Of a DNA stretch of 33,944 bases, positions 2,478 to 27,893 are shown piece after piece. A program made the position numbers and the translations under genes. The DNA lies in contig CACPLK010000009.1 in the NCBI GenBank assembly GCA_902634795.1, forward strand, positions 1 to 33,944, given 5' to 3'. Origin of the DNA: an uncultured Prochlorococcus sp. GTDB taxonomy: Bacteria; Cyanobacteriota; Cyanobacteriia; PCC-6307; Cyanobiaceae. Numbering within the stretch: the stretch's first letter is position 1; each line of letters opens with the position of its first letter. Under the pieces are notes generated by a model that worked only from the letters and a program-made list of their open reading frames with translations, did no database searches and was not told the DNA's origin.

Positions 2478-3971
2478 ATGGATACTTTTGAGGAGGCTAG
2501 AAAGATAAACGAAATAAGCTCTTTTGGAGACAGCTCAAAGGTATTAGACAAATACGGCTTCAAAGTGCTAGAGACACTAGGATCTGGAAAAGATGGAGTT
2601 ACTTTTAAAGCAATCAAAGATGAGAATCTTTATGTGTGTAAAGTACTTAAACAATACGCCAAGCAGTATTTAGATGTAACTAAAAAAGTAATTTTAGAAT
2701 TAGAGTCAACCAAGTCTAATCTTATTTATCCAAATATAATTAATGATCAAATTTTAATAAGACCTTATTTGCCTCTTAAAGAAGTTAATACTAGTCCTTA
2801 TAAGTATTTGAATTTCTTGGTAGATCTATGCGACTTACAAATTGAGCTAATTAAAATCAACCTTATTTATTGGGATCATGGGTTCGATAGACATATTAAC
2901 TATATGTATAACAATGAAGAACTTGTATTAGTTGATTTTGGAGGAAATGGATTTCTGTTTACTAATACACTGGAAGTTCCAAATATAAAAGAAAGGAGAC
3001 AGAATCTTCTCTTTTTTAATAATCTCTTTGCGCAATGTCAGTTACTTTTACATCTCAACTATGTAGCTTTAGGTAAACGTTTTAAAGAACCATTGCCCTC
3101 AATAAGCCAAGTCTGTAATAGCAATGATCTTAAGAAGATAACTGAATTTGCAGCCAAATTACTCAATGGCTCTTATCTTAGTGGGATTCAAAGTCATATT
3201 CTAAATTCCGATCTTAAGACACAAGAAGGTTGGAATCATATTAAGGATTGGTGCATTAGCAGACTTCAAAAGAACAATGACTTTTTGCATGAGCCCGCTG
3301 ATGTTCAAATTGTAAAAAAGGAAAACGATCAAATCACAGTGAATGGATACCAGTCATATAAAATCATAAATAATATCGTATTGCCTATAGATAAAGGAGG
3401 ATCTGGATTATGGAGCTCTAAAAAAAAATATGATATTGTTAAAACAGCACTGAATCAATGTTGCAATAAATTTAGAATATCATCCGTTCTTGATTTAGGC
3501 TGCAATTTAGGGATGCATTCTTTTACTTCAACTTTGGAATTTAGAGTCCCTGAAGTTATAGGAATTGATTATAATAATGACTATATAGATATCTGCAGGA
3601 AAATCACAAAATCATTAGAGGTGAAATCTAAAATTACATTTGTTTGCAAAAGGTTTGAGCAAGTAGAGGAAATAGCTGATGTTGTTATTTTGATGGGACT
3701 TATTCATCATATTTATCATAGAACTGAAAGCTTTGGAGACCTTAATGATATTGTAAAAAAGATTCGCCGATTAACTCGTAAATGTGCGATTATAGAATTT
3801 CCTGATGAAACTGATCAGAAAGCGATTAAATGGACAAATATGATTGGAAGGGTTAAAAAGGATGCTTATACAAAAAGCCTATTTAATAAAGCACTCAATA
3901 CTTATTTTTCACAGGTTGATATCATAGGGGAAATTAATGGCAGCAGAACAACTTTTATTTGTTATACATGA
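2478..3971 (+). CDS. Bifunctional protein kinase-like / class I SAM-dependent methyltransferase fusion
   Basis: The product has 497 residues. The N-terminal half shows a kinase fold: glycine loop GSGKDGVTFKA (about 35-45), ATP-binding lysine K55 in VCKVLK, a catalytic-loop region WDHGFDRHIN (about 122-131) and the metal-binding motif VDFGG (D143-G145). From about residue 300 a Rossmann methyltransferase follows: motif I VLDLGCNLG (about 337-345), the acidic end of strand 2 in IGIDYNNDY, and VVILMGLIHHIYH as the motif IV/post-I region. The same two activities occur in WbdD-type enzymes, which cap O-antigen chains with phosphate and methyl groups, but in the opposite domain order. Its glycosyltransferase neighbours suggest a glycan- or lipid-modifying role; this is inference. 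The catalytic loop is atypical, since the D127 to N131 spacing is one residue short of the usual HxDxxxxN pattern. Confidence 0.75.
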   Translation: MDTFEEARKINEISSFGDSSKVLDKYGFKVLETLGSGKDGVTFKAIKDENLYVCKVLKQYAKQYLDVTKKVILELESTKSNLIYPNIINDQILIRPYLPLKEVNTSPYKYLNFLVDLCDLQIELIKINLIYWDHGFDRHINYMYNNEELVLVDFGGNGFLFTNTLEVPNIKERRQNLLFFNNLFAQCQLLLHLNYVALGKRFKEPLPSISQVCNSNDLKKITEFAAKLLNGSYLSGIQSHILNSDLKTQEGWNHIKDWCISRLQKNNDFLHEPADVQIVKKENDQITVNGYQSYKIINNIVLPIDKGGSGLWSSKKKYDIVKTALNQCCNKFRISSVLDLGCNLGMHSFTSTLEFRVPEVIGIDYNNDYIDICRKITKSLEVKSKITFVCKRFEQVEEIADVVILMGLIHHIYHRTESFGDLNDIVKKIRRLTRKCAIIEFPDETDQKAIKWTNMIGRVKKDAYTKSLFNKALNTYFSQVDIIGEINGSRTTFICYT

Positions 3972-5373: not shown

Positions 5374-6072
5374 TTAATCCCAAAGTTCAATTGAATCATC
5401 TCTAGCCTTAAACCATTCACTATCAAAAATACCTAGCTGCTCGCGTTGTTCCTTAAACCATGGCCCGCCTAGTGTCCAATGACAAATATCAATAGAAGAA
5501 TTGGGCGTATTCTTATCTAGAATAAGGTGATTCCAGCTGCTAGGTATCTGACCAATTTTTTTTTCATCATCTAGCCACTTAAAACGATGTAAGTCTAATC
5601 CCGAAGCAGAATTTACATATTCAATCGAAAGTTGTGTGCAGGCAGCACAATTGAAGAGTATTAATGAGCTCCAATTTTTTTTAGGGTAGGCAGTCTGCAC
5701 TTCTCCTTGAAATTTAAACTTTTCGGATGGACGGTGTTCATGTTTCACACACATGACCGAATATTTATCATCTTTGAGATCCCACAAATTTTTAATGTCA
5801 CTTTTACATAGCATGTCGCAATCCATGAAAATAGCCCATCCATTAAAATCCATTAAAAAAGGGACTAAGAATCGAGTGAATGAAAAATCTGTAGATTGCT
5901 TAGGGTCTCTATTTCTAAAGTAATACTTTTTTTTAATTAGTTGAGCGTTTACTAATGGTGTTATTGAAAGTGGCGCGGAACTTTTCTGATAAAGACTATC
6001 TATTAAAACATTAGTTGCAGCTCTTTCTCTATAGTCATAGCCAATAAATATAGGAATAAGAGAAACTGACAT
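5374..6072 (-). CDS. GT8-like glycosyltransferase with DXD motif
   Basis: The product has 232 residues and is soluble. The N-terminus PIFIGYDYRERAATNVLIDSL is typical of GT8-like/stress-protein-type glycosyltransferases. The metal- and nucleotide-sugar-binding motif is D84-C85-D86 in WAIFMDCDML, followed by WSSLILFNC and a C-terminal HWTLGGPWF, the position where GT8 enzymes have their second metal-binding HxxGxxKPW-type motif. Transfer of a hexose from a nucleotide sugar onto a glycan or lipid is expected from the family; the exact substrate cannot be read. It lies last in the surface-glycan island, before a long gene-poor boundary. The length is usual for short bacterial members and the start at 6072 is the only good ATG. 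Confidence 0.75.
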   Translation of the reverse strand: MSVSLIPIFIGYDYRERAATNVLIDSLYQKSSAPLSITPLVNAQLIKKKYYFRNRDPKQSTDFSFTRFLVPFLMDFNGWAIFMDCDMLCKSDIKNLWDLKDDKYSVMCVKHEHRPSEKFKFQGEVQTAYPKKNWSSLILFNCAACTQLSIEYVNSASGLDLHRFKWLDDEKKIGQIPSSWNHLILDKNTPNSSIDICHWTLGGPWFKEQREQLGIFDSEWFKARDDSIELWD

Positions 6073-22934: not shown

Positions 22935-23431
22935 TTTTTTTTCATCAAAACAACTGCATGACAACTTATACCTTCCTCTCTTCCCTCAGCACCTAATTTC
23001 TCATTTGTAGTTGCTTTAACTCCTACATCATCAGCTTTAACTCCGATTTTCTTAGATATTTTCTCCTTCATTGAGTCAATATGAGGTTTTAATTTTGGCC
23101 TTTCAGCGACAATAACTGAATCAATATTTTGAATTTGCCAACCTTTCTTCTCTATCAATTCCATGACCTTTTCAAGAAGAATCAAGCTATTTGCATTTTT
23201 CCATTTGGGGTCATCTGGAGGGAAATACTTTCCAATGTCACCCAAGGATAATGCCCCTAATATGGCATCCATGATTGCATGAGTAAGAACATCTGCATCA
23301 CTATGACCATCAAGACCTAATCCATCAGGATGGATTAACTTCACCCCTCCAAGAATTAAAGGCCGACCCTCAACCAAGCGATGCATGTCGTAGCCATTGC
23401 CGATCCGTAGCTGAGGAAAATTATCTTTCAT
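22931..23431 (-). CDS. ispF: 2-C-methyl-D-erythritol 2,4-cyclodiphosphate synthase
   Basis: The product has 166 residues. It has the N-terminal GNGYDMHRL (metal ligands D15, H17), [17 protein letters not shown] (H43), [11 protein letters not shown] and the C-terminal [20 protein letters not shown]. It closes CDP-ME 2-phosphate to MEcPP in the non-mevalonate isoprenoid pathway, feeding chlorophyll, carotenoid and quinone synthesis. All zinc ligands are present. It is first in the set ispF-TIGR03792-larB. The trmD and era genes lie on the same strand further upstream, but 4.5 kb of accessory genes intervene. Confidence 0.96.
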
Positions 23432-23783
23432 ATCAACAAGTTTCGGGGAAGATTTTCGACCTGTGACTCAACTGTGTTTCAATTACGTAAGTTTGTGAAC
23501 GAATTGTTTAACAGAAATTGTCGATCAATTTCATTCTAGTCGAGCGTAGAGCGAACGTAAAAAGATTTAGGTAAGCGTTAGTTAATACTCGCAGATCAGT
23601 AAGTGATAAATAAGAATCACTGATTGATCTTATTTCCCTAAAAGTTCCAAGAGGGAATCAAAAGGCGTTGTAATCGCTTTATTTTTTTTCGCCAAGGTAG
23701 AGATCAGAATGAAAAGGACCTTCTTTACATTTGCCGTTACTTCTGGCGATATTTTCATCTCTAACTCATGCCGTTTTATTGGG
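23432..23783. other. Intergenic region between ispF and the TPR-sulfotransferase gene
   Basis: About 350 bases hold the ispF promoter, the candidate small RNA (23595-23689) and a 34-codon plus-strand ORF (23709-23813) that I do not trust. It is less AT-rich than the spacers in the islands and forms the left edge of the second accessory block. Confidence 0.5.
23595..23689 (+). ncRNA. Candidate structured non-coding RNA ending in a terminator hairpin
   Basis: Three hairpins lie in series on the plus strand. The first is 23595-23607 with 23616-23628 (ATCAGTAAGTGAT/ATCACTGATTGAT, 11 of 13 pairs). The second is TTCCCT 23634-23639 with AGGGAA 23652-23657. The third is AAAGGCG 23661-23667 with CGCTTT 23675-23680 (one bulged G), followed by A and eight T (23682-23689), a terminator. 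No convincing ORF spans it. The 5' end is not defined and could lie 50-100 bases upstream. The alternative is only the terminator plus chance hairpins. I cannot match it to 6S, tmRNA, Yfr1 or SRP RNA. Confidence 0.4.
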
Positions 23784-25409
23784 TTACTGACTAATAGAAT
23801 CAATTATGGGTGAAAGCATTTTTTGATACTTTTCCCATACCCCAACATGTTCTTTCGTAATTGGATACCTAGGAAGGATACAACTATAACCTCTTAAAAT
23901 ACGCTTATTTAAGTGAGGAGATAAATATATTTTATCCCATTCAAAGTTTAACCAACTAATTAATGATTTAATCATTGACTTAGGTTCATAAACCAATGAT
24001 TCATAATTCAGACAATATATTCTTGATGAATACAAAAGCTTAAATTCTTCTAGAATTTTATTTTGAGATAAATAATAATCTTTTGTATCATTGAGGGATG
24101 ATGTTAGATTCCAACCAGTTGTAAAATATGTCTGATACAATGTAAGAACATTATCTAATATATATCGTTTGCAAGCAACAATTTTTGCTGTTGGAAAATG
24201 ATTTAAAATTAGACCTAAAAAAGAAAAATCACTGACTTTAATTATTGTTCTCTCACCGTTACCTTTAGTTTTTAAAATATTATTATAAATAACATCATAA
24301 AAACTATTTTTATTTCCCTTGCTTAAATTATCAAGCCAGTCTTGAAGCATCTTATTAAAGATAAGCTCATCTTGAATTGGATCTTTACTCTTCATTGTAA
24401 TAATTGACTCAACCAATGTGGAACCACTTCCAGGAATACCAAAAATAAAAATTAATTCAGAATTATTTGGAGATTTGATATTTGGTTCATGGGATAAATC
24501 TATCAAGATTTTTAGTTTATTTTCTCTGGAAAAATAAGAATCAATATTAGAAGGCATATATTTCAATTTCAATTCATTAACAAAAACAAGCTGCTTAGCA
24601 CTCTCAACATATTTTTCTTGTTTATGTAAAGTAGTTGCACGCGAAAAATGAATATCAAATTGACTATTTAAATCATTTTTGCTAAGAATATCCTCTGAAA
24701 AAAGATCCTTATTCCAGTAATCAATATTTTTAGAAGTTTTTAAATTCGAAAGAGAGCAATAAGGTCTAGAAAAAAATGGGGAAAGTTTATGTGCCTTTTG
24801 ATTTAATTTTTCTGCTTCTTTTAAATCACCTAGCTCAACAATGACGGAAGAAAGATTATGATAATATTTTGCTTTATTAGGATTAATCTCTATAGCTCTG
24901 CGATAATATTTTATAGACTCAATATGATTTCCTTCAGAGAAAAGAAATGAGCCAAAATATGCCATAAGAGAATCGCAATTACAATCAAGTTTCACCGCTT
25001 TGCGCAATGCATTTTCAGCATTTTGTTTTTGAAAAGATTCTCTATACAAAACTCCTAAACAAAAATAGGACTTTGCGCTGTCAGGATTGAGTTCTATGGC
25101 TTCGAGAAGATATTTTTCTGCTTCTTTTAATTTGCCTAGACTTGTTAAAATTGTTCCATAATTAGAAAGAACCCGGTAATCTTTATATCCTTTATTAATG
25201 AAATCTTGATAATATTTTGCTGCTTCTGAAATATTTCCATGTGAATGAAACCTAAATGCTTGATTAATTATTTGTTCTTTAGAATTTTTAGAAGAAGTAT
25301 TAGTATTAATAGTTAAATTTTCTTGATTTTCGTCTAAAGAAAATTGGATTGGATATGTTTTTACTTCAGTAATTTTCTTGTTTTCTTCTTCTTGACTAGA
25401 ACTATCCAT
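23784..25409 (-). CDS. TPR-repeat sulfotransferase
   Basis: The product has 541 residues. A leader (about 10-60: VKTYPIQFSLDENQENLTIN, then SKEQIINQAFRFHSHGNIS) precedes five or so TPRs (about 60-230, e.g. AEKYLLEAIELNPDSAKSYF). A sulfotransferase domain follows: the 5'-phosphosulfate-binding loop GIPGSGSTLVE is at about 324-334, and a 3'-phosphate-binding segment is likely around FPTAKIVACKRYILDN. Family members move sulfate from PAPS to proteins or glycans; the target is unknown. The P-loop reads G-S-G-S-T where R-S-G-T-T is usual, so the normal arginine is replaced. The N-terminal leader is shared with the chimeric ORF at 27145. The gene is AT-rich and probably horizontally mobile; it stands alone in transcription. 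Confidence 0.85.
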   Translation of the reverse strand: MDSSSQEEENKKITEVKTYPIQFSLDENQENLTINTNTSSKNSKEQIINQAFRFHSHGNISEAAKYYQDFINKGYKDYRVLSNYGTILTSLGKLKEAEKYLLEAIELNPDSAKSYFCLGVLYRESFQKQNAENALRKAVKLDCNCDSLMAYFGSFLFSEGNHIESIKYYRRAIEINPNKAKYYHNLSSVIVELGDLKEAEKLNQKAHKLSPFFSRPYCSLSNLKTSKNIDYWNKDLFSEDILSKNDLNSQFDIHFSRATTLHKQEKYVESAKQLVFVNELKLKYMPSNIDSYFSRENKLKILIDLSHEPNIKSPNNSELIFIFGIPGSGSTLVESIITMKSKDPIQDELIFNKMLQDWLDNLSKGNKNSFYDVIYNNILKTKGNGERTIIKVSDFSFLGLILNHFPTAKIVACKRYILDNVLTLYQTYFTTGWNLTSSLNDTKDYYLSQNKILEEFKLLYSSRIYCLNYESLVYEPKSMIKSLISWLNFEWDKIYLSPHLNKRILRGYSCILPRYPITKEHVGVWEKYQKMLSPIIDSISQ

Positions 25410-25685
25410 CTTCTCGTATCTTTTATCTCATTTGATTCTTACGATTTTACTACTAAAGAGAAGCGGATACTTGAAATTGATTAGTGTCCTGAAATTGCTT
25501 AACAATAAACAAAAAGGTTGCACTTACCAGTCAAAAGAGTGTATAGGGGCAAATGCGAGCGTTCATCTTATTAATACAACCTCACACATATATGAAATAA
25601 TTTTTTTGGGAAATTTCAAGGTTTTACTTAGCACGCTAATATTTAAGCTAATTTATTCTTTAAATATTTATATTAATGATTTTCT

Positions 25686-26285
25686 TTAGGATGAAAAATT
25701 CATCCAACCTGTAATTATATATTTAGTTCCTGATTTTAATATATTACCTCTATGAGCATGGGTCCATTCAGCAGGCCAAATCAAAGTTAACCCTTGTTTT
25801 GGCTGAACATCTAAATCATAATGACTAAAGTGTGTCGAGCCTCCATCCTTCACATCATTCAAGTAAGTCATAAAAGCAAACACTCTATGAAGATTTTCTA
25901 AAGACGTTCTTTCTGTATGAATTTTTCTAAAATGCTGACCAGTAGTATATCTTTGAATATTAAAAGGGCCAATTTCTAATTTCTCAGCAATTGATTCTAA
26001 AAATGGCCATTGAGAAACATAGTCTTTATAGCATTCAAATAGTTTTACGAAGTATTCTTTAAGAATTTGGTTCCCTGGTAAATCAAGTTCTTTTGGTTTT
26101 ATTGTTAAATCAATACTATCTTTCTTTTCTAAGTTAATTCCTTCTGCTACTCTTCCTTGGATGTGTCTGGTTTGATTTAATTCATAATAGTCGATTATAC
26201 TTTCACATAAGGAATGAGGTTCAATAAGCCAAGCCCCGATGAAATCAGGATTAAAATTACCCTTTTTAATGCACTCTCTTTTCAT
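25686..26285 (-). CDS. 2-oxoglutarate/Fe(II)-dependent oxygenase (prolyl 4-hydroxylase-like)
   Basis: The product has 199 residues. The double-stranded beta-helix core reads FNIQRYTTGQHFRKIHTERT, RVFAFMTYLNDV with GGSTHFSHYDLDVQPKQG and TLIWPAEWTHAHRGNIL, then KSGTKYIITGWM. Likely iron ligands are H123, E125 and H178 (or H176), with K188 binding 2-oxoglutarate. The first pair is H-x-E instead of the commoner H-x-D. Such enzymes hydroxylate protein, peptide or small-molecule substrates. It starts one base after the TPR gene (TAA-A-ATG), so the TPR protein may present the substrate. Similar oxygenases occur in cyanophages, so exchange with phage is conceivable. Confidence 0.85.
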   Translation of the reverse strand: MKRECIKKGNFNPDFIGAWLIEPHSLCESIIDYYELNQTRHIQGRVAEGINLEKKDSIDLTIKPKELDLPGNQILKEYFVKLFECYKDYVSQWPFLESIAEKLEIGPFNIQRYTTGQHFRKIHTERTSLENLHRVFAFMTYLNDVKDGGSTHFSHYDLDVQPKQGLTLIWPAEWTHAHRGNILKSGTKYIITGWMNFSS

Positions 26286-26286
26286 T

Positions 26287-26874
26287 TTAATTAATAACTA
26301 TTGATGACATTCTATAATCAAAGTTAATTGCACCATTAACTTCTCTTAATGTTTTTACCCCATCATGATGCTTTCCTTGTTTCATAAGTACTGTACCCAG
26401 TCCTGAAAATGCCATCTCAATATTTTTATTTATATTAATTGCTTTTTCATAACTTAAATAGGCTTCTTCTAGTTCACCTAACTCTTGTAAAACATACCCA
26501 AGATTACAATATGCTTCTGCATAATCAGGCCTAAGCTTAATCGCTTTACGAATAGAACTCTCAGCCTCATTTGGCTTATTTTGATCACTCAAAATATTAC
26601 CTAAATTGTAATAGGCCATCGCGAAATCAGGCTTTATTTGTATAGCTTTACGCATTGATTTCTCAGCCTCTTCAAGTCTTCCTAAATCAGATAAAATATT
26701 ACCCAGGTTCGAATGAGCTTCTGCAAAGTCTGGTTTTATTTTAATTGCTTTTCTTTGCATCAATTCTGCTTCTTCTGGTTTTCCAATTTCTCTTAATATT
26801 CCTCCGAGATTTGTATAAGCAATTTCATTTCGAGGGGATAGTTCAATTGATTTATTATAAAAATCTATAGCCAA
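26287..26874 (-). CDS. TPR-repeat protein, N-terminally truncated
   Basis: About 195 residues consist of tandem 34-residue TPRs of the canonical type: AYTNLGGILREIGKPEEAEL, AHSNLGNILSDLGRLEEAEK, AYYNLGNILSDQNKPNEAES, AYCNLGYVLQELGELEEAYL, ending in VNGAINFDYRMSSIVIN. The start is uncertain: no ATG fits, TTG 26874 is used, and an in-frame TAA lies just upstream. It begins in mid-repeat, without the leader found in the other TPR genes of this block, so it looks truncated. It is coupled to the oxygenase (one-base gap). TPRs bind peptides or partner proteins. See the divergent chimeric ORF at 27145, which breaks at the equivalent point. Confidence 0.75.
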   Translation of the reverse strand: MAIDFYNKSIELSPRNEIAYTNLGGILREIGKPEEAELMQRKAIKIKPDFAEAHSNLGNILSDLGRLEEAEKSMRKAIQIKPDFAMAYYNLGNILSDQNKPNEAESSIRKAIKLRPDYAEAYCNLGYVLQELGELEEAYLSYEKAININKNIEMAFSGLGTVLMKQGKHHDGVKTLREVNGAINFDYRMSSIVIN

Positions 26875-27144
26875 ATCATTTTTCCCCTTTTATCGTATAT
26901 TTTTTCTTATGTAGTTATAATAGAAGAAATTAGTCTATTTATTTAATTATCTTTGTAGTTAAAATATAATTAGTTCAATATTTTCACTGTATTAAAAAAA
27001 ATAAAAGCTTTAAAATTATAATTCAAATTAATTTCAAGATCTGTCTTATCCTTAAGAGAGTTCTTTAAATCTATGAAGAAAAATCCTTCTAAGGAGCAAA
27101 AAAGTGTATATTGTATTTATAAATAATATTATAAAAACAACATA

Positions 27145-27657
27145 GTGAAAGGATTTAAAAAACGAGAACGACCTAAGGAAAAGAAAGATACTGTAACAAC
27201 TTATACCATTCCTAGGGTTACTCCAGAAGAAGACATCAATACTGATCTGAATAAAAAGCAACTAATTTCTAAAGCACTTTCATTCCATTCGCAAGGCAAA
27301 ATTAAGGTTGCAGAAAAATACTATAAAATAATTATTGATAAGGGCTTTAAAGATCCGGTAATTTTTTCTAATTTGGGTGCAATATATAAACAAAAAGGGC
27401 AAAATGATAGAGGTAAAGCTATTACCCACTATAGTCAAACATTTAGCCTTCCAGAAATTCCTGGTGTCAGAACTGTTTACAATGGTGACTATTTATCAAT
27501 TCCAGCAGAAGAAGGTCAAATATTAATATGGCGAAGTCATATAAGACATGGTTATATAAATACTAATGAAGGAGACAACAGAACCACACTTAGTTTTAAC
27601 TCAATCCCTCAAACTTTAAGAAGCGGAGCCTATTCATTTACTGTTAATGACAACTAA
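27145..27657 (+). pseudogene. Chimeric remnant: TPR leader fused to the C-terminal part of a 2OG-Fe(II) oxygenase
   Basis: The 170-residue ORF starts at GTG 27145. Residues 1-95 are a leader plus one TPR (QLISKALSFHSQGKIKVAEK, then FSNLGAIYKQKGQND), close to the N-terminus of the sulfotransferase at 23784. From about 95 the sequence changes to the distal half of a TIGR02466-like oxygenase: LSIPAEEGQILIWRSHIRHG and GDNRTTLSFNSIP, with the distal histidine (about H135) and a 2-oxoglutarate arginine (about R146). The first H-x-D ligand pair and half the fold are missing, so it should be inactive. I read it as an internal deletion or recombination product. It is divergent from the TPR gene at 26287. 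Confidence 0.65.
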
Positions 27658-27663
27658 ATACTT

Positions 27664-27683
27664 CAATCAATTTAAATTGATTG
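27664..27683. repeat. Perfect 20-bp palindrome after the chimeric ORF
   Basis: CAATCAATTTAAATTGATTG reads the same on both strands and begins six bases after the stop at 27657. It has no loop and no following T-tract, so a terminator is unlikely. It could be a protein-binding or recombination site, or chance in AT-rich DNA. Confidence 0.45.
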
Positions 27684-27893
27684 TTAATCTCTTGAAATAT
27701 TTTTACATTTAATTCACAAAAGACATTACCAGTATTTAATCTATTCCTAATTGTATTAAGACTTACAAAGGAATTTTATACTTAAATTGTTAAAGAATAA
27801 ATAACAATTTAGAAAGAAATCTAAACTTTACATAACAACAATTTAATTATCAGCTCTAGAACTTTTTTACAGCCTCACTTAAGATATAGATAA

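Follow-up and report, generated by a model that had tools for sequence, protein, structure and literature searches.

How can a handful of neighbouring genes begin alike and end in unrelated enzymes? The question is raised by contig CACPLK010000009.1 (assembly GCA_902634795.1) from G000, a single-cell genome of Prochlorococcus type (1.11 Mb, 61% complete); the full 33,944 nucleotides (nt) of this contig we call the window. Between positions 23784 and 27657 it holds a cluster of open reading frames (ORFs) in which a sulfotransferase with tetratricopeptide repeats (TPRs) and a second ORF, starting at 27145, appeared to have the same N-terminal leader. A preliminary description, made from the sequence alone, saw here a set of exchangeable effectors behind one front end. 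We found that this leader marks a large family, and that its fronts and catalytic ends have been exchanged recently and often.

We examined the leader with a profile built without either window protein. The leader of the sulfotransferase scored 138.7 bits (E 3e-42) and that of the 27145 ORF 69.7 bits (E 1e-20), versus 12 bits for the best of 1000 shuffled copies, so that the proposed similarity did not vanish in a profile search. The two ORFs do carry different C-terminal modules, as had been claimed: Sulfotransfer_3 in the first (Pfam E 1.9e-16, 61.5 bits against a cut-off of 27, with TPR also matched) and part of 2OG-FeII_Oxy_5, a 2-oxoglutarate (2OG) oxygenase family, in the second. The leader follows a plan of a tail (residues 1-43), a TPR-like cap (44-90) and then regular TPR repeats, and an alignment of eight G000 proteins has 13 invariant columns. 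In the window sulfotransferase protein, AlphaFold predicts residues 1-41 to be disordered, with a predicted local distance difference test (pLDDT) score below 50; Pfam finds in the leader only a weak TPR_3 match at residues 52-70, and the part ahead of the cap, the tail, is not a TPR. The tail motif is roughly K-K-[IV]-x-E-V-K-T-F-x-V-P-F..(K)ENI-x-I-x-T. Over 171 paralogues its columns are conserved at 84% (T), 88% (F), 88% (V), 91% (P) and 89% (N), values that partly reflect the profile-based choice of members. The ratio of nonsynonymous to synonymous substitution rates (dN/dS) does not; close pairs give 0.54 in the tail, 0.39 in the motif and 0.29 in the cap, and this family of exchangeable modules is under purifying selection.

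The family is larger than the preliminary description saw, with 11 profile matches in G000 itself. Across the genus, all 41 genomes match the leader profile at E<=1e-6, with up to 46 matches per genome; a few have weak matches alone (best E ~1e-10 to 1e-12), and in G003 there are three, all partial. Two closed, single-contig relatives carry 43 and 36 full-leader genes, or 4.2% and 3.4% of the chromosome, with 11 effector classes each and arrays of up to 12 genes on a single strand. The named relatives are Prochlorococcus single cells, two of which, AG-402-L09 and AG-402-M23, are listed as LLI (PMC6370341). Outside the genus leader matches are few and mostly to the cap half alone, which makes the cap the more widespread half of the front; in samples that also took in genomes of the genus, 69 of 251 family genomes and 16 of 244 phylum genomes matched. 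The repertoire turns over fast: of 48 family genes compared between the closed genomes G004 and G006, just one is matched by a full-length partner at >=80% identity, and that one bears another front type, while the median identity is 78% for 17 pairs of ORFs outside the family taken from the same regions. An origin of the leader in phages or plasmids was considered and set aside, the leader having no match in phage, viral-contig or plasmid collections. As a separate observation, 2OG modules (window 25686-26285; L141:1261-2109) resemble the cyanophage families phrog_61 and phrog_81, which hints that such modules may be exchanged with phages.

Next we classed 224 distinct leader ORFs by the part behind the TPR block. 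Their C-termini represent at least 15 classes, most of them non-homologous to one another, twelve with several members and the others singletons. The larger classes are Sulfotransfer_3 (41 ORFs), GT9-like (31), Methyltransf_25 with a long N-terminal part (20) and TylF-like (18), followed by 2OG-FeII_Oxy_5 (18), GT41 (12), an unknown domain (8) and SGNH/DUF459-like (7), where the labels GT9, TylF and SGNH are based on weak profile scores or motifs. Small classes comprise two further oxygenase-like groups (6 and 6), FkbM methyltransferase (4) and PRMT-like methyltransferase (3), and among the singletons are NKWYS (capsular-type), unknown and unassigned modules. Within G000, this one leader is followed by sulfotransferase, Methyltransf_25, TylF-like, SGNH-like, GT9-like (cut by a contig end) and GT41 modules; for instance, the C-termini behind the window leader MDSSSQ-EEENKKITEVK and behind the leader MDSSSQAEEENKKITEVK on contig C49 are unrelated.

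Other fronts occur as well. One type reads MKGFGEK.. (L153:8745-10604, L158:9180-11045, L037:3156-5543) and another contains ..IEIAQSLFKQNKYQETIDTCNQIL.. (the IEIAQSLF type; L123:2217-4316, L153:1588-3468, L144:256-2106). Both bear some of the same effector classes, so that fronts, too, are exchangeable. One class, Unk6 (8 members; L112:2436-3314), has an effector domain of 285-298 amino acids (aa) without a sequence match in Pfam, NCBIfam, PHROG or PDB; AlphaFold modelling (two sequences) gave no usable structure, with a pLDDT of 37. A 244-aa ORF of no known family adjoins leader genes in two genomes (L034:298-1029, L154:9453-10184).

We then asked how tightly a front is tied to its enzyme. 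DNA identity between leaders is 0.694 within an effector class versus 0.679 between classes; the nearest leader shares the effector class in 38 of 172 cases, where 21 are expected at random; and the leader tree needs 104 class changes, compared with 116 +/- 3 when labels are shuffled. Within a class, the rank correlation of identities is 0.00-0.39 between leader and effector versus 0.48-0.95 between the two halves of the effector. The most direct evidence comes from the most similar leaders within single genomes: seven of the eight resolved pairs, with leader identities of 88.8-100%, carry different enzymes. These are GT41/2OG3 and Sulfo3/Unk6 (both 100%), 2OG5/GT9 (98%), GT9/GT41 (95%), FkbM/GT41 (94%), GT41/GT9 (89%) and MT25/2OG5 (89%). 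The Sulfo3/Unk6 pair is 98.4% identical over 1063 nt that begin 47 nt ahead of the leader and run almost to the end of the TPRs, and is unrelated beyond; the GT41/2OG3 pair shares 1122 nt at 97.2%. Throughout, the shared DNA begins between 47 and at least 600 nt upstream of the leader and ends inside the TPR block or close to its end. Converse swaps are also found, with two TylF modules 94% identical behind leaders of 59% identity and two GT9 modules 91% identical behind leaders of 63%. Front and catalytic part are thus decoupled, with DNA breakpoints near the end of the TPR block, and leaders are not each bound to one effector by the nearest-leader, tree or pair data, as the view of exchangeable effectors had anticipated. 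An artefact of single-cell assembly is unlikely, as the same pattern is present in the single-contig genomes of relatives. TPR units of different register are ~71-86% identical in DNA; since the repeats form long runs of similar DNA, homologous recombination within them would be the natural mechanism.

The catalytic part need not be fused to the front. Between the two leader ORFs of the window lies what the preliminary description called a TPR protein coupled to another oxygenase. Both ORFs are there, with one base between the stop of the TPR gene and the ATG of the oxygenase gene, and the oxygenase domain is complete (PF13640 positions 2-97 of 98, 44.7 bits against a cut-off of 27); the pair is not an outsider but is a conserved two-gene version of the leader-TPR-effector architecture. 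This oxygenase has more than 30 relatives in the genus, at 51-67% identity, all of them stand-alone ORFs of ~200 aa, and wherever the context was read a TPR gene lies immediately upstream, adjoining or overlapping. The upstream partners end in a conserved tail, GLG..L.K.G....G...REG.GSI.F.., and usually begin with a leader, without a catalytic domain of their own. The window partner retains the C-terminal tail (..GLG.VLMKQGKH..G...LRE.NG.I.FDY) and has lost its leader. A frameshifted fusion as the source of the pair is ruled out by the conservation of the two-gene form. The catalytic part can thus also be supplied as a coupled separate protein.

The 27145 ORF fared differently. It had been described as a chimera of leader and oxygenase, and both its leader and its oxygenase end are present; the oxygenase is not complete, however, as it contains the C-terminal half alone (2OG-FeII_Oxy_5 model positions 55-101 of 101), keeping the H and R without the HxD half that holds the first Fe ligands. 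Its last 84 aa are 44-50% identical to the end of stand-alone 2OG oxygenases of 225-258 aa, a type also found at G000:C3:30096. With half a domain, the reading as a working chimera is rejected. The simplest and probable reading is an internal-deletion join of a leader gene and an oxygenase gene, and the product is probably inactive. The module of the window sulfotransferase is divergent (~40% identity to class members), and its loop for binding the sulfate donor 3′-phosphoadenosine-5′-phosphosulfate reads PGSGST for the PRSGST of its class, a nearly invariant R having become G; the enzyme may be weak or inactive.

A clean insertion of 4,464 bp separates trmD from ispF and contains the whole cluster. 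In five relatives (L258, L260-L263) these two genes form one fused ORF of 411-413 aa; homology of the window to the relatives ends at 23409 and resumes at 27874, points that lie 2 nt apart in a relative. In G004 this site holds other cargo, namely a KdsB-like gene and a HAD-like one (sequence read by eye). Because different insertions split the fusion in the window and in G004, sharing ~160 nt at the ispF end, the site is suggested to be an insertion hot spot. No convincing terminal repeats of the 4,464-bp insertion were found. In G004 and G006, arrays are also found close to tRNA-Arg(tct) and tRNA-Ala(ggc) genes, and one G004 array adjoins SIS, PfkB/cytidylyltransferase and HAD genes resembling those for ADP-heptose synthesis, beside GT9 members. 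Elsewhere in the window, a GT41 gene indeed opens the first AT-rich island, as noted earlier; it extends past the contig start, so any leader is out of view. Near it and a GT8-like gene (5374-6072), the same island holds a 497-aa ORF (2478-3971) whose N-terminal part is weakly kinase-like and whose C-terminal part is a methyltransferase.

Positions, strands and supporting evidence of the leader-family features in the window
Feature	Positions	Strand	Composition and basis
TPR-sulfotransferase, 541 aa	23787..25409 (ORF 23784-25409)	-	Leader tail, TPR cap, TPR repeats and Sulfotransfer_3; Pfam
Leader tail, residues 1-43, predicted disordered, motif E-[VI]-K-T-[FY]-x-[VI]-P-F	25281..25409	-	AlphaFold pLDDT, column conservation
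TPR-like cap (SKEQIINQAF.FHS.GNISEA..)	25140..25280	-	Helical, pLDDT 81-89
Sulfotransferase catalytic module, residues 320-492	23934..24452	-	Pfam match
TPR protein of split TPR/oxygenase pair	26287..26874	-	TPR families (Pfam); without leader in window copy
Stand-alone 2OG-Fe(II) oxygenase, 199 aa	25686..26285	-	Pfam 2OG-FeII_Oxy_3 E 2.8e-11
Leader (27145-27387) fused to last 84 aa of 2OG oxygenase (27403-27654)	27145..27657	+	Leader score, partial Pfam match
Insertion holding the whole cluster, 4,464 bp, between ispF and trmD	23410..27873	.	Flank alignment, low G+C (27-30%)
Module of the GT41 effector class, truncated by contig start	36..1067	+	Pfam Glyco_transf_41 E 1.2e-60; GT41 class profile match

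Starting from the observed architecture, copy number, split form and decoupling, we propose a lineage-specific modular enzyme family with fast turnover, whose ends are exchanged through TPR recombination and whose common docking front may serve surface tailoring, a reading to which, taken whole, we give an even chance. Each protein consists of an exchangeable front, made of the conserved disordered tail, the TPR cap and about 2-15 near-identical TPR repeats, followed by one of the at least 15 catalytic modules, either fused or provided by a coupled downstream gene. Duplicated genes would swap ends through homologous recombination in the repeats. The front may then serve all members as a docking module, delivering alternative tailoring enzymes, for sulfate, methyl, sugar or hydroxyl groups, to a shared acceptor, which would most likely belong to the assembly of a cell-surface glycan or glycoprotein; the outcome could be a strain-specific surface chemistry, for example against phages or grazers. 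Docking is suggested because the front is conserved across unrelated enzymes and because a split form exists, and a surface acceptor because of the module types, the heptose-type genes in G004 and the fast turnover of the repertoire. The capsular-type NKWYS module adds to the surface-side context. We regard a common docking front for enzymes that decorate the cell surface as plausible but unproven. Somewhat short of an even chance, in our estimate, is combinatorial recruitment, in which disordered tail and TPR front would be a universal docking code for one acceptor and the clade would continually recombine its fronts (at least three types) and catalytic modules (at least 15), whether in cis or as coupled partners, into strain-specific chemistry.

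Several points weigh against this explanation. A weak residual coupling between leader and class remains (38 nearest leaders versus 21). Part of the decoupling statistic reflects low resolution, because the leader is short (~265 nt) and its halves correlate poorly with each other (0.01-0.69); the long near-identical pairs provide evidence for swaps that is independent of the leader tree. Inspection of the leader by eye showed no signal peptide or membrane segment, and the GT41, PRMT-like and TPR-oxygenase modules would also fit cytosolic protein modification.

The last point leads to the main rival, that the fronts recognize substrates for the modification of cytosolic or membrane proteins, as in the eukaryotic O-GlcNAc transferase (OGT), with the TPR superhelix binding a protein and the module adding GlcNAc, sulfate, methyl or hydroxyl. 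A Foldseek search with the window model retrieves consensus TPR proteins as well as OGT and SPINDLY with their TPR-enzyme architecture, and relatives that modify proteins are known for the GT41, PRMT-like, Sulfotransfer_3 and 2OG oxygenase modules. However, GT9, FkbM, TylF and NKWYS modules are typically enzymes of sugars and small molecules, and a near-complete turnover of the repertoire between relatives would be unusual for the modification of conserved proteins; we hold this rival to be a minority possibility.

A leader without any shared function, duplicated and kept alike by gene conversion together with promoter and start region while the modules do unrelated jobs, would account for shared DNA that often includes upstream sequence, to 600 nt, so that the leader could hitch-hike with expression signals. 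It would also account for the MKGFGEK and IEIAQSLF fronts, whose sharing of some effectors indicates that the leader is not essential for them. The dN/dS values of motif and tail argue otherwise, pointing to purifying selection on the protein, as does the persistence of the motif across 15 classes and in most of the genus's genomes, and we consider this account improbable. Ordinary TPR likeness with chance adjacency, to which the TPR-like half of the leader and the mutual resemblance of consensus TPRs might point, is refuted by a tail that is not TPR, by the bit scores far above those of shuffled copies and by fronts of different effectors that reach 97-98% DNA identity over more than 1 kb.

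Prochlorococcus is the textbook case of a streamlined genome, yet a low-light clade of it gives ~4% to one shuffled enzyme family, and explaining this investment would reveal what selects hard on these cells. The design of a constant front and a variable enzyme predicts one partner for all leaders and proteins that tolerate swaps, and natural domain exchange at a defined point would be of use for protein engineering.

Parts of this picture are already known. Single TPR-enzyme fusions (TPR-sulfotransferase, TPR-2OG oxygenase, CheR-TPR; PMC3447774) have the individual architectures seen here; they are single families, however, with no common leader or catalytic exchange within a genome described. 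The enrichment of low-light Prochlorococcus in TPRs is likewise known, with TPR Pfams expanded there (PMC11357015) and TPR families among the strain-unique genes in Cyanorak (PMC7779031). These counts probably cover the same genes in bulk, but in the passages located in the two papers TPR domains are counted, with one guess at photosystem II, and neither leader nor effector exchange is described. Among open-access papers we found none that describes the common leader, tabulates the effectors or reports their exchange.

In polymorphic toxins, a constant N-terminus precedes a variable toxic C-terminus, and the likeness extends to tandem arrays, truncated copies and exchange by recombination. The C-termini here are transferases, methyltransferases and oxygenases, that is, biosynthetic or modifying enzymes; neither a secretion domain nor immunity genes were seen, and in those arrays of G004 and G006 whose sequence was read, the members are not regularly followed by a small partner gene. 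The TPR-GT41 proteins (OGT, SPINDLY and bacterial OGT-like proteins) are alike in placing an N-terminal TPR superhelix before the catalytic domain; one class here is Glyco_transf_41 itself, and a fold search with the window TPR domain finds both OGT and SPINDLY. OGT is not known to have a conserved disordered tail like that of the leader family. The difference lies in the breadth of the design, as GT41 is here one of at least 15 modules carried on the same front.

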